Made by a program: the position numbers and the translations under genes
Shown here: positions 28,392-32,468 of the stretch, piece by piece
How the letters are laid out: the number at the start of each line of letters is the position of its first letter
Position numbering within the stretch: position 1 is the first letter of the stretch
NCBI RefSeq assembly: GCF_002192415.1
Contig: NZ_CP021780.1
Span: forward strand, 496,001-560,000
Source of the DNA: Paenibacillus donghaensis
GTDB lineage: Bacteria; Bacillota; Bacilli; Paenibacillales; Paenibacillaceae
Reading direction: 5' to 3'
Length of the DNA stretch: 64,000 nucleotides
The notes under the pieces: generated by a model
The model's database searches: none
What the model was told of the DNA's origin: nothing
Seen by the model: only the letters and a program-made list of their open reading frames with translations

Positions 28392-28528
28392 GGGGGCTCC
28401 AACCTCACTGATTCATAGGATTAATTCCAGCATCTGGAATGTGACATACCTTGTTGATTATAGAGTGGGTTAAAGTTTATAGTCAATAATAAAAATCAAT
28501 GATTCCACTTGGAAGGCAGTTGATCACA

Positions 28529-29287
28529 TTGAGTACAGTAAACGCTTTCTCGGCGTCTTGGGAGCAGTATTTGCATTATACGACTATGCCTTGGGGCCGG
28601 TTGTTCTATCAGACAGCCTGGAGACAAATCGACGACTTTCTGACTTTGACGGGGCAATCGTTATTGGATATTGGCTGCGGGTTCGGGATATCCAGCAATG
28701 AATATAGCCGCAGAGGGAACCGGGTAACCGGAATTGAGCCTACACCGGAGATGCTTGCCATTGCGGAAGCGGGTGGGGAAAAGGTGAGTTATATCAAGGA
28801 TTCCTTCGAACAGACGGCTCATTTGCTTGGACTTTATGATTGGATTCTATGCCATAATGTGCTGGAGTACAGCGCTGATCCACAGTTGGTCATCTCCTAT
28901 ATCCGAGAGTGCCAGCAGCCGGGAGGCTACTTGTCGCTGATTGCCCATAATCCGGTTGCCAAGGTCATGAAACAAGCCATTATTCTAAAAGATCCTGAAC
29001 GTGCACTGGCGAATATGGGCAGCAGTCAGGAATATAGCGGTATTATTCAGACGGACATTACGGTGTATTCCTATGAGCAGTTGACAGAATGGCTGCATGA
29101 AGCAGGATATGAGATTGCAGAGCATTATGGAATACATAATCTATACGGGTACATAGCAGACAATGAGCTTAAACAGGATGAAGAGTGGCATAAACAAGTC
29201 ACAGAGCTGGAAATGGAGGCGGGCAAGCAGAGCCCCTATCGAGATATAGCTGTCTTCACGCATATTATTGCCCGGAAGCGGAGTTAA
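28529..29287 (+). CDS. Class I methyltransferase, CmoM-like
   Basis: About 252 residues. SAM-binding motif I reads LLDIGCGFGISS, with acidic GIEP at the second strand and CHNVLEYSADP at the fourth. The pattern (FSASWEQYLHYTTMPWGRL, PGGYLSLIAHNPVAKVMKQAI, GIHNLYGYI) recalls CmoM/SmtA enzymes that methylate wobble uridine carboxymethoxy groups in tRNA, but this is from memory of motifs. The start is uncertain: TTG at 28529 has GGAAGG 12 bp upstream, and an in-frame ATG lies at 28499. Confidence 0.75.
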   Translation: MSTVNAFSASWEQYLHYTTMPWGRLFYQTAWRQIDDFLTLTGQSLLDIGCGFGISSNEYSRRGNRVTGIEPTPEMLAIAEAGGEKVSYIKDSFEQTAHLLGLYDWILCHNVLEYSADPQLVISYIRECQQPGGYLSLIAHNPVAKVMKQAIILKDPERALANMGSSQEYSGIIQTDITVYSYEQLTEWLHEAGYEIAEHYGIHNLYGYIADNELKQDEEWHKQVTELEMEAGKQSPYRDIAVFTHIIARKRS

Positions 29288-30297: not shown

Positions 30298-31404
30298 TTA
30301 GTCGACAGGGCTGCTGAGCTCCGCGTGTTCTGCAAGCAGTGTGCCGACTGCATCAGCGAGCCTGCGGTCTGCGGGGGAGACCAGCCACTCGTCCGGGATT
30401 ACAAGATGGCTTACGCTGGTGCTTGTGAGATAGCTGTAAATAATCTGCGCTTCGTCAATCTCATTGCGGCCAATCTCAGTCATTTCAATGAGTGATGGCG
30501 AGCCGAAGGTTTCGGTGATAGCTGTACAAATCGTGTCACGCAGCTTGGTGTTGCTCTGAGGATGGCTGCTCTCCAGCCTGAGCTGTCCCAGCAGGCGGCT
30601 ACCTTTGACCAGCAGCAGCTTCAGCGTATGCTCGTCCATAGTTTCAACAATGGCAATATTGCGGTTCTCTTCAGCAAAATGGATCACCTGTTTCTTCTGC
30701 ACCAGAAAGCGGACCTGGCCTAGGGAATCGCGGAGGGCGGCGGCAGCTTCGAAATGGAACCGGTCCGCTTCCACATTCATCCGCTGCTCCATTTCTTCCA
30801 TAATGCGCAGATCGGTTCCATCCAGCAGGGCAATTACTCTATCGATTATCTCTTCATAGAATCGCACGGCCTCACCACCTGCGCACACTCCCATACATAA
30901 CCCGAGTGAATAGTTGAGGCAGTGAGCGCCTGGACGGCGGGAGCCGCTACAGAGAATGCACAGATGCTCCTTAAGGCCCTGAACGGCCCGCTCGACCGTG
31001 CTTCTGCTTGTATAGGGGCCAAAGAACAGGCCTTCTCCTCCAGAAGAGGGATCTCCGGTAACTCCAATCTGACGTCTGCCTCCTTGACTGCGGATGGAAA
31101 TGTAGGTATAGGCAAGCGGGTTCTTCATCTTGCGGTTGTACATCGGCTTCAGTTCCTTAATAAGCCGGCATTCCAGCATAAAGGCTTCGAATTCGGTGTC
31201 TGTAAGCCGGTACTCCAGATCCCTGATATTGCTGACCAGCCGCTTCACCTTGGGGGAATGGCCTTTGTTGTTATAGAAATAGGATTGCACCCGTTTTTTC
31301 AGCGATTTGGCCTTCCCTACATAAATAATATGGCCCAGGCTGTCCTTCATCAGATAGACGCCGGGCTGCAAGGGCAGGCTCTGAACCTTCTCGGTTAAAT
31401 TCAT
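30298..31404 (-). CDS. UvrC-like GIY-YIG nuclease lacking the C-terminal half
   Basis: 368 residues. The N-terminus LPLQPGVYLMKDSLGHIIYVGKAKSLKKRVQSYF is the GIY-YIG nuclease of UvrC, followed by the Cys-containing segment CILCSGSRRPGAHCLNYSLGLCMGVC and a UvrB/C interaction motif (MEQRMNVEADRFHFEAAAALRD). It stops before the RNase H-like endonuclease and HhH domains, since UvrC is about 600 residues. It should make only the 3' incision, as E. coli Cho does, or serve another role. GGAGGATTCCCT lies upstream. It is divergent from the methyltransferase leader. Confidence 0.82.
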   Translation of the reverse strand: MNLTEKVQSLPLQPGVYLMKDSLGHIIYVGKAKSLKKRVQSYFYNNKGHSPKVKRLVSNIRDLEYRLTDTEFEAFMLECRLIKELKPMYNRKMKNPLAYTYISIRSQGGRRQIGVTGDPSSGGEGLFFGPYTSRSTVERAVQGLKEHLCILCSGSRRPGAHCLNYSLGLCMGVCAGGEAVRFYEEIIDRVIALLDGTDLRIMEEMEQRMNVEADRFHFEAAAALRDSLGQVRFLVQKKQVIHFAEENRNIAIVETMDEHTLKLLLVKGSRLLGQLRLESSHPQSNTKLRDTICTAITETFGSPSLIEMTEIGRNEIDEAQIIYSYLTSTSVSHLVIPDEWLVSPADRRLADAVGTLLAEHAELSSPVD

Positions 31405-31506
31405 AGGGAATCCTCCGTTCTCTTGGGGATTCTTTCATTATGCCATAATAGCTGGTAAGCTAATAGTAATGATAGAGAACGGCGAACGAGAAGGAGGGAC
31501 TTGGAT

Positions 31507-31554
31507 ATGGTGATTAAATTCGGTATCTGCCCGGTGCGGCCACAGCAAATCTGA
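31507..31554 (+). CDS. 15-residue leader peptide before the methyltransferase gene
   Basis: MVIKFGICPVRPQQI, followed by two stop codons (TGA TAA). AAGGAGGG at 31491-31498, 8 bp before the ATG, is a near-perfect ribosome site, better than that of most genes here. The last eight codons lie inside the first hairpin of the downstream leader. A short, well-translated frame overlapping alternative RNA structures is the layout of ribosome-controlled attenuators such as ermC. No homologue is known to me. Confidence 0.6.
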   Translation: MVIKFGICPVRPQQI

Positions 31555-31647
31555 TAACAGATTGCACCGGGCTTAAGAGCAAGAACCTGTTATCAGTTGG
31601 CCGCACCTGCCTCATGTTGGATTGCACGCTTGGATACATGAGAGGAG
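31529..31647 (+). promoter_or_regulatory. Nested alternative hairpins in the methyltransferase leader
   Basis: Structure A pairs GCCCGGTGC (31529-31537) with GCACCGGGC (31564-31572), plus AATCTG/CAGATT. Structure B pairs GGTGCGGCC (31533-31541) with GGCCGCACC (31599-31607) and CTGATAACAG (31551-31560) with CTGTTATCAG (31587-31596). A and B share bases, so they exclude each other. Structure C pairs CTCATGT (31611-31617) with ACATGAG (31637-31643), which overlaps the ribosome site AGAGGAG of the next gene. No T tract is present, so control would be translational. Confidence 0.6.
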
Positions 31648-31657
31648 CAAAAGGCTA

Positions 31658-32413
31658 ATGAAAAGAAATGAGTTCATGAACATTTGGAAGTCCGAAGCAG
31701 AGAAGGCGTTTGTTGGATGGGATTTCTCTTATCTGGCGGGCAGGGTAATCAAGGACCCGCTGCCTTGGGATTATCAGGCGGTTGTGCTGGATTACATGAA
31801 GGAAGCTGAGCGGGTACTGGATATGGGAACAGGCGGTGGGGAATTTCTGTTGTCGCTGAATCCGCCGCGAGGCCGTACCTATGCCACCGAGGCGTATCCG
31901 CCTAACTATGAGCTGTGTGCCAACACGCTTCCTGCCCATGGTATAGATGTTCGGCAGGTGTTCAGCCAAGATCAGCTGCCGTTTGACAGCAGCTTCTTCG
32001 ATCTGGTGATCAACCGCCAAGCAGCCTACTCGGCGAAGGAACTGTACAGAGTGCTGAAGCCGGGAGGAAGCTTCGTGACCCAGCAGGTGGGCGGAATGAA
32101 CAACAGGGAGTTGGCCGGATTTCTGCTGGGCAGCAGCACGGCTGAGATTGCCCCTGACTTCAGTCTTGCCTGGAATGTGGAGGAACTGAAGCAGGCGGGG
32201 TTCACCATCAGTGTAAGCGAGGAGTGTTTGCCGCATGCACGGTTCCGGGACATCGGTGCATTGGTCTATTGGGCTTCCATCATCGAGTGGGAATTCCCCG
32301 GCTTCTCGGTGGATCGTTGTTACGAGCAGCTCTGCCTACTCCAGCAGGAGCTGGAAAGTAGAGGGTACGTGGAGAGCAGGGAGCACCGGTTGATGATTAT
32401 TGCGAAGAAATAA
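31658..32413 (+). CDS. Class I SAM-dependent methyltransferase behind a structured leader
   Basis: 251 residues. The SAM-binding motif is VLDMGTGGGEFLLSL, followed by acidic ATEAYPPN, then DLVINRQAA and the VLKPGG strand typical of class I enzymes. The N-terminus (WDFSYLAGRVIKDPLPWDYQAVVLDYM) recurs in a methyltransferase group of unknown substrate. It lacks the zinc-finger of RlmA-type rRNA methyltransferases. ATG at 31658 has AGAGGAG 10 bp upstream, a site partly hidden by the leader hairpin. The upstream peptide suggests induction by a translation-blocking signal, which is inference. Confidence 0.8.
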   Translation: MKRNEFMNIWKSEAEKAFVGWDFSYLAGRVIKDPLPWDYQAVVLDYMKEAERVLDMGTGGGEFLLSLNPPRGRTYATEAYPPNYELCANTLPAHGIDVRQVFSQDQLPFDSSFFDLVINRQAAYSAKELYRVLKPGGSFVTQQVGGMNNRELAGFLLGSSTAEIAPDFSLAWNVEELKQAGFTISVSEECLPHARFRDIGALVYWASIIEWEFPGFSVDRCYEQLCLLQQELESRGYVESREHRLMIIAKK

Positions 32414-32431: not shown

Positions 32432-32468
32432 AAACATCCCCCGTCCAGCAAGGACGGGGGATGTTTTT
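32432..32468. terminator. Bidirectional terminator
   Basis: AAACATCCCCCGTCC (32432-32446) pairs with 32452-32466 over 15 bp. T runs follow on the plus strand; on the minus strand the hairpin begins right at the stop of the small gene at 32467. Confidence 0.88.

Follow-up and report, generated by a model that had tools for sequence, protein, structure and literature searches.

Upstream of a methyltransferase gene of Paenibacillus donghaensis lies a very short open reading frame overlapping several potential RNA hairpins, an arrangement that raises the question of whether synthesis of the enzyme depends on the progress of a ribosome along this leader and, if so, what that ribosome senses. The window, i.e. 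the whole stretch analysed, comprises 64,000 nucleotides (positions 496,001 to 560,000 of NZ_CP021780.1, a genome consisting of a single contig of 8.54 Mb), and positions below refer to it. A first-pass annotation of its sequence had proposed translational attenuation as known from ermC. The proposal was examined by comparing the locus with its relatives (L numbers) and by computing how a ribosome on the leader would affect the RNA.

The locus and its enzyme

The 15-codon frame with a strong ribosome site that the annotation had claimed is indeed present, as read directly from the sequence (ATG at 31507, TGA at 31552-31554; Table 1). A short spacer before the leader is common to it and a divergent gene with a GIY-YIG nuclease domain (30298-31404), and a second, different class I methyltransferase frame lies at 28499-29287. 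No sigma-70-like promoter was found in 31380-31700. One terminator-like site was found upstream of the leader (31413-31428) and none between the leader start and 31700, a search confined to the window. Rfam 15 gave no matches at the gathering score across the whole window, nor at E up to 1 within 31400-31700.

Table 1. Positions of the leader, its RNA strands and the downstream gene in the window.
Feature	Position	Strand	Basis
Ribosome site of leader, AAGGAGGG	31491-31498	+	sequence
Leader frame, 15 codons MVIKFGICPVRPQQI and stop	31507-31554	+	sequence; frame conservation
Computed ribosome stall: P site AAA (Lys4), A site TTC (Phe5)	31516-31521	+	inferred from masking runs; codon counts
S1, leader strand serving helix A (31529-31537) and helix B (31533-31542)	31529-31542	+	covariation
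Helix C, 5' strand, CTGATAACAG	31551-31560	+	covariation
S2, 3' strand of helix A; preceded by inner hairpin 31548-31563	31564-31572	+	covariation
S3: helix C half 31587-31596, helix B half 31598-31607	31587-31607	+	covariation
Predicted hairpin hiding the methyltransferase ribosome site: 31597-31617 with 31636-31658	31597-31658	+	predicted fold
Methyltransferase ribosome site, AGAGGAGC	31641-31648	+	sequence
Class I methyltransferase, 251 residues (stop within coordinates)	31658-32413	+	family searches, structure model
Hairpin followed by T-run 3' of the methyltransferase, probable terminator	32434-32468	+	read by eye

The enzyme belongs to Pfam Methyltransf_11, its family counting 7023 proteins at E 0.001, and its structure model (mean pLDDT 91.8) has a confident class I fold that matches many class I methyltransferases alike. 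It distantly resembles RlmA (1p91, E 3.8e-5), scoring 22.5 bits against an equivalog cut-off of 303 for NCBIfam PRK11088.1. Occurrence is patchy, with the methyltransferase found at E 1e-60 in 19/200 genomes (the window's own counted), a distribution that fits a resistance gene without proving it. Phages gave no methyltransferase match at 1e-15, and PADLOC matches looked generic. The smtA motif was considered and set aside, being, according to the accessible part of its description, another RNA, from Thioalkalivibrio (PMC11109978).

Conservation of the leader RNA and its frame

A scan of species genomes yielded 281 methyltransferase relatives, and the analysis continued with the best 80; the closest come from Paenibacillus. 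A covariance model (R1), trained on 40 out of an initial set of 48 distinct elements, matched 45/80 loci at E 0.01 (relatives 43-62% identical; 46 match rows, one being an opposite-strand echo in L011), and 35/80 relatives had no match to R1. Among the 45, 36 had trained R1 and match by construction, while nine lay outside its training (L018, L019, L028, L035, L043, L057, L059, L067 and L079); in L043 the element stands about 1.5 kb before a methyltransferase match without its first 34 residues. Holders include Paenibacillus, Evansella, Jeotgalibacillus, Psychrobacillus, Tissierella, Lacrimispora, Roseburia and Gemmiger, and the element before 31658 is the sole R1 match in the P. donghaensis genome. 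When mapped onto a tree of 76 methyltransferases, 42 of which have the element (L025, L026, L028, L034 and L043 were omitted because their translations came out short), its distribution requires a minimum of 16 changes; shuffling gave a mean of 25.2, and 0/500 shuffles were as low.

R1 searches of overlapping genome sets matched 7/398, 35/294, 2/198, 1/150, 14/196, 16/196 and 7/148 genomes. Six new low-scoring matches in the 148-genome set (E 2.7e-7 to 1.5e-3) are supported by the methyltransferase homolog found behind each (6/6). Two of four plasmid loci tested, each on a Lactobacillaceae plasmid, had a divergent element (39.6 and 42.2 bits); the relatives with the element on mobilizable Lactobacillaceae plasmids are about 40% identical. 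A search of plasmid DNA with a single element (L051) gave no match, and among viral contigs 26 + 30 stretches share an S1-like string, 0/56 of them matching the model. L081 (spurious anchor), L108 (34.9 bits, inside a coding frame) and L148 (same place as L140) were dropped, and L067 was left out of the 100-element sets while being kept among the 88 used below.

Three helices can form in the leader RNA. Helix A pairs 31529-31537 with 31564-31572 and encloses an inner hairpin (31548-31553/31558-31563), helix B joins 31533-31542 to 31598-31607, and in helix C 31551-31560 lies opposite 31587-31596; the mutually exclusive structures of the first-pass annotation (31529-31572 against 31533-31607) correspond to helix A against helices B and C. 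For the window alone, the minimum free energy fold (-50.7 kcal/mol) is helix A plus the hiding hairpin, against -46.6 when B is forced with C. Single-sequence statistics give weak evidence (z -2.04, 7/200 shuffles equally good; z -0.34 for the downstream piece), so the element is judged to be more than chance from the comparison among relatives.

In an alignment (A1) of 40 of the 48 distinct elements (omitting L018, L019, L028, L035, L079, L092, L098 and L100), helix A was paired in 94.2% of cells with both-side changes at 5/9 pairs (at columns 22/62, for instance, 16 sequences change C-G to U-A), the hairpin inside it in 83.6% (2/6 pairs), helix B in 95.7% (8/10) and helix C in 88.6% (5/10); since the sequences are related, these counts are not independent events. 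Sliding the structures for A, B and C by 1-3 columns left 28-51% paired, and the values for B and C together were reached by 0/500 shuffles on all five measures. The control was weaker for helix A with its inner hairpin, for which 19 further pair types compare with a shuffled mean of 17.0 and 73/500 shuffles reach the observed value. S1 itself reads GGTGCAG (L004), AGTACAG (L123) or GATATAG (L152), with matching partner strands, and the own pairing beat cross pairing in 85/97 elements for helix A and 81/97 for helix B, a test that leans to own pairs because strands were picked for best pairing. Comparison thus shows the predicted exclusive pairings to be conserved with compensation. For the leader bases preceding S1, additional pairing was sought by eye with S3, with the region following S2 and, as CGAG:CTCG, within the leader, but none was consistent across sequences.

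Regarding the ribosome site of the methyltransferase, a stem was claimed to cover part of it. That stem (31611-31617/31636-31642) is there, as the tip of the longer predicted hairpin listed in Table 1, which covers most of AGAGGAGC together with the A of the methyltransferase start; the 3' half of S3 doubles as the hiding strand. The hairpin scores z -0.8 in the window itself, and across 48 elements the mean is -2.5, with 28/48 below -2 (L066 mispicked); the ribosome site was mostly paired in 37/47. Pairing between S3 and the site was better with the own than with the cross partner in 80/97 elements, so that the hiding pairing also co-varies; this test had no site strand for L132, L138 and L141, and some strands were mispicked (L105).

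The leader frame was open, with a start and a ribosome site, in 87/88 distinct elements as scripted, against 1/88 for each of the other two frames. The listed exception is L140, which has no standard start in the leader frame. A stricter count is 86/88 if L067, included among the 87 on account of an anchor supplied by the model match, is read in register with S1, when its frame is closed though the RNA is kept. Leaders share a core of roughly [R/F]-[G/D/I]-N-[C/Y]-[P/S]-V-Q, and translation of the leader is supported by these comparisons. The search of relatives for a conserved leader and covarying stems, which the annotation had asked for and on whose outcome it had staked its proposal, was run, and both were found conserved.

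Base-level constraint is also visible: the third position of codons -3 and -1 was invariant in 48/48 elements while the residue varied, a constancy that partly reflects the requirement for TA-like bases in the anchor rule. The same TA occurred in 43 rows gathered without that rule; L107, L129 and L134, among the later relatives, deviate at -3. In the window (31522-31527) and its relatives, T and A are kept at the junction of codons -3/-2, with residues varying (43/43 rows).

A computed stall place and the readings weighed

The effect of a ribosome was mimicked by removing RNA base by base from the 5' side, as its edge would, and computing the freeness of the downstream ribosome site, with positions counted relative to the Pro/Ser codon. 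Over 48 elements the mean rose from 0.30 without masking to 0.46-0.51 when the first free base lay at 0 to +2, and dropped to 0.23-0.28 from +4; over 100 elements it was 0.41 unmasked, 0.57-0.59 at the peak and 0.29-0.34 later, 77/100 exceeding the later value by 0.15 and only 55/100 exceeding the unmasked value by as much. In the window itself the peak (0.52-0.55) was not above the unmasked value (0.45-0.65), and freeness fell to 0.16-0.32 beyond +4; with a longer 3' end the peak was only slightly above (0.52 against 0.38-0.42). Combined with a toeprint distance of 15-16 bases, as given in the available part of PMC6851288, the peak places codon -5 in the P site and codon -4 in the A site. The computation points to a narrow stall place early in the leader from which a ribosome would free the downstream ribosome site. 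The conserved S/P-V-Q was considered as an arrest signal and not adopted: three loci (L152, L153 and L156) have a stop codon in place of its Gln, and a ribosome that had advanced so far covers S1, a state scored closed in the simulation.

Among 100 elements, codon -4 is CGA in 77, TTC in 14 (as in the window, Phe5) and one of seven other codons in 9, while the P-site residue varies. Where codon -4 encodes Arg, it is CGA in 77/78 cases, whereas 81 methyltransferase genes use CGA for 5.9% of their Arg residues and 35 window frames for 4.9%. The macrolide-type +x+ motif is described, in the portions available, as Arg/Lys-x-Arg/Lys with x in the P site and the second basic residue in the A site (PMC10314930; PMC6851288). 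At codons -6/-4 it occurs in just 27/100 elements, so the family as a whole does not fall among the macrolide-type arrest leaders, and the window has Ile-Lys-Phe where the motif would stand. In genomes near G338, many leaders start MR[T/I/M]R, placing Arg-x-Arg exactly at the stall place.

The element is probably a translational attenuator that reads ribosome stalling in an erm-like manner and is triggered early in the leader. In the absence of stress, ribosomes would clear the leader and S1 would fold on S2 (helix A), which keeps S1 away from S3; S3 would then mask the ribosome site of the methyltransferase by pairing, and no enzyme would be made. If a ribosome paused near the beginning of the leader, the conserved CGA/TTC codon (Phe5 in the window) occupying its A site, its leading edge would cover the first bases needed for helix A and leave the rest of S1 free. 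S1 could then pair with S3 (helices B and C), taking it off the ribosome site, which would open. The erm-like attenuation of the first-pass proposal is supported by the translated leader, the co-varying exclusive pairings, the hidden site and the lack of a terminator-like site between leader and gene, and the wiring is more specific than had been sketched. The exporters among the genes behind the element (see below) also speak for this reading. Stalling would be the trigger, a ribosome-targeting antibiotic or similar stress its presumable cause, and the enzyme may protect the cell, perhaps by modifying ribosomal RNA.

The same fold switch could instead report slow decoding of one codon, through an uncharged or under-modified tRNA for CGA or TTC, and so respond to amino-acid supply or tRNA state. 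The strong excess of CGA over its use in nearby frames and the variable P-site residue speak for this, whereas the single codon, with no run of hungry codons, the 23 elements with TTC or other codons, and the exporter, radical-SAM and MFS genes found behind the element (see below), which are unlike arginine genes, make it unlikely. A riboswitch, with direct binding of a small molecule by the RNA and a coincidental leader frame, would account for the constant third bases at -3 and -1; such a reading appears distinctly improbable given the near-universal leader frame with start and ribosome site, a masking optimum lying where an in-frame ribosome puts the conserved codon in its A site, and the breaks in third-base constancy in the later relatives L107, L129 and L134.

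Control of termination before the gene, as in bmrB, has in its favour that exclusive folds over a leader are typical of transcription attenuation in what is available of PMC4191407. It is nevertheless very improbable, as the window has no terminator-like site between leader and gene and the conserved third pairing involves the ribosome site. Still less probable is autogenous control, in which the methyltransferase would bind a leader mimicking its RNA substrate: base-level conservation does extend beyond the helices, but the same element precedes other gene types, and no methyltransferase match occurs in the fetched loci L106, L123-L127, L131 and L132.

Genes behind the element and known leaders

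The genes following the element were inspected in 52 distinct loci found with R1, excluding the window itself and L108. A methyltransferase homolog stood in 37 (L104 appearing to be the same contig as L014), an ABC exporter in eight (L123, L124, L126, L131, L132, L135, L147 and L125, the last assigned from its first residues only, where the contig ends), a radical-SAM protein in four and an MFS transporter in one, the gene being missing or broken in two (L134 and L137, with no intact gene). Family searches covered L123, L127, L136 and L106, and the other ABC and radical-SAM assignments were made by likeness. The radical-SAM proteins (L127, L136, L145 and L146) are small, at 250-317 residues, with PF04055 in the two tested; they have no close curated family, their best NCBIfam matches lying far below cut-off.

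Several described leaders resemble the element in part. The tlrB/yxjB (RlmAII) leader of Bacillus subtilis likewise lies before a methyltransferase gene and has a short leader peptide, a ribosome stalled with Arg in the A site and a hidden ribosome site; it differs, in the accessible account, by a terminator, a hairpin containing the leader itself and a stall at a C-terminal RYR (PMC6851288). In the element here, two co-varying folds exclude each other fully, a terminator-like site is lacking and the computed stall lies near the start; the two enzymes are related distantly at best. In the parts available for ermC (PMC4191407) and ErmDL (PMC10314930), leader stalling likewise frees a ribosome site via exchanged RNA pairings, and the MR[T/I/M]R leaders in part of the element family resemble the +x+ type (PMC10314930). 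Unlike ErmC/ErmD-type leaders, the family as a whole seldom carries +x+ (the 27/100 above), and one element is common to four unrelated gene types. Erm enzymes belong to a fold family other than Methyltransf_11, the family of the enzyme here.

According to the portion available, the bmrB leader of the BmrCD ABC exporter also joins a leader peptide to alternative stem-loops and controls an exporter on ribosome-targeting antibiotics, but it works by transcription attenuation with a terminator and serves one gene system (PMC4191407). The uORFC-6-1 motif before hflX is a co-varying RNA over a small frame with an arrest-like motif, mostly from Bacillales; as far as the available description goes, it has another downstream gene and a constant Arg-Leu-Arg, and it is set apart here by that description, not by sequence (PMC8632094). 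A description of the present element was not found in the literature covered (open-licence papers, no preprints, most subscription journals lying outside). As a stalling attenuator with exclusive folds it is of a known kind, in an arrangement that we did not find described and that we regard as a new type.

Taken across its hosts, the element may be one portable ribosome-stall sensor RNA, present in Bacilli, Clostridia and on Lactobacillaceae plasmids, that governs no fewer than four gene families unrelated to one another; on this view the methyltransferase and radical-SAM proteins would be unrecognised resistance enzymes, possibly RNA-modifying, against one class of ribosome inhibitors, sensed after a few residues at a fixed CGA/TTC codon. 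We put this forward tentatively, as a possibility that is rather less than even. If correct, the leader could be used as bait, the genes behind it being candidates for ribosome protection or drug export, and a large methyltransferase family, a radical-SAM group and an ABC exporter group, many of them in gut bacteria, would gain a testable function. Moreover, in vitro tests of ribosome sensing after a handful of residues can draw on a natural set of about 100 elements that differ jointly in three exclusive pairings and one codon.

Some observations concern individual versions. The ABC exporter loci L123, L124, L126, L131, L132, L135 and L147 have one look, with S1 AGTACAG and the ribosome site GGAGTACAG in those inspected. 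In L106 (1501-2848), the frame of the MFS transporter behind the element looks interrupted near its start, by assembly error or decay. The plasmid versions L157 and L158 have, on our own reading, no standard start in the leader frame; in L157 (3850-3996) another small frame, seen by eye, runs from an ATG just upstream, contains CGA and stops before S1, and the sensing frame may have been exchanged in this version.
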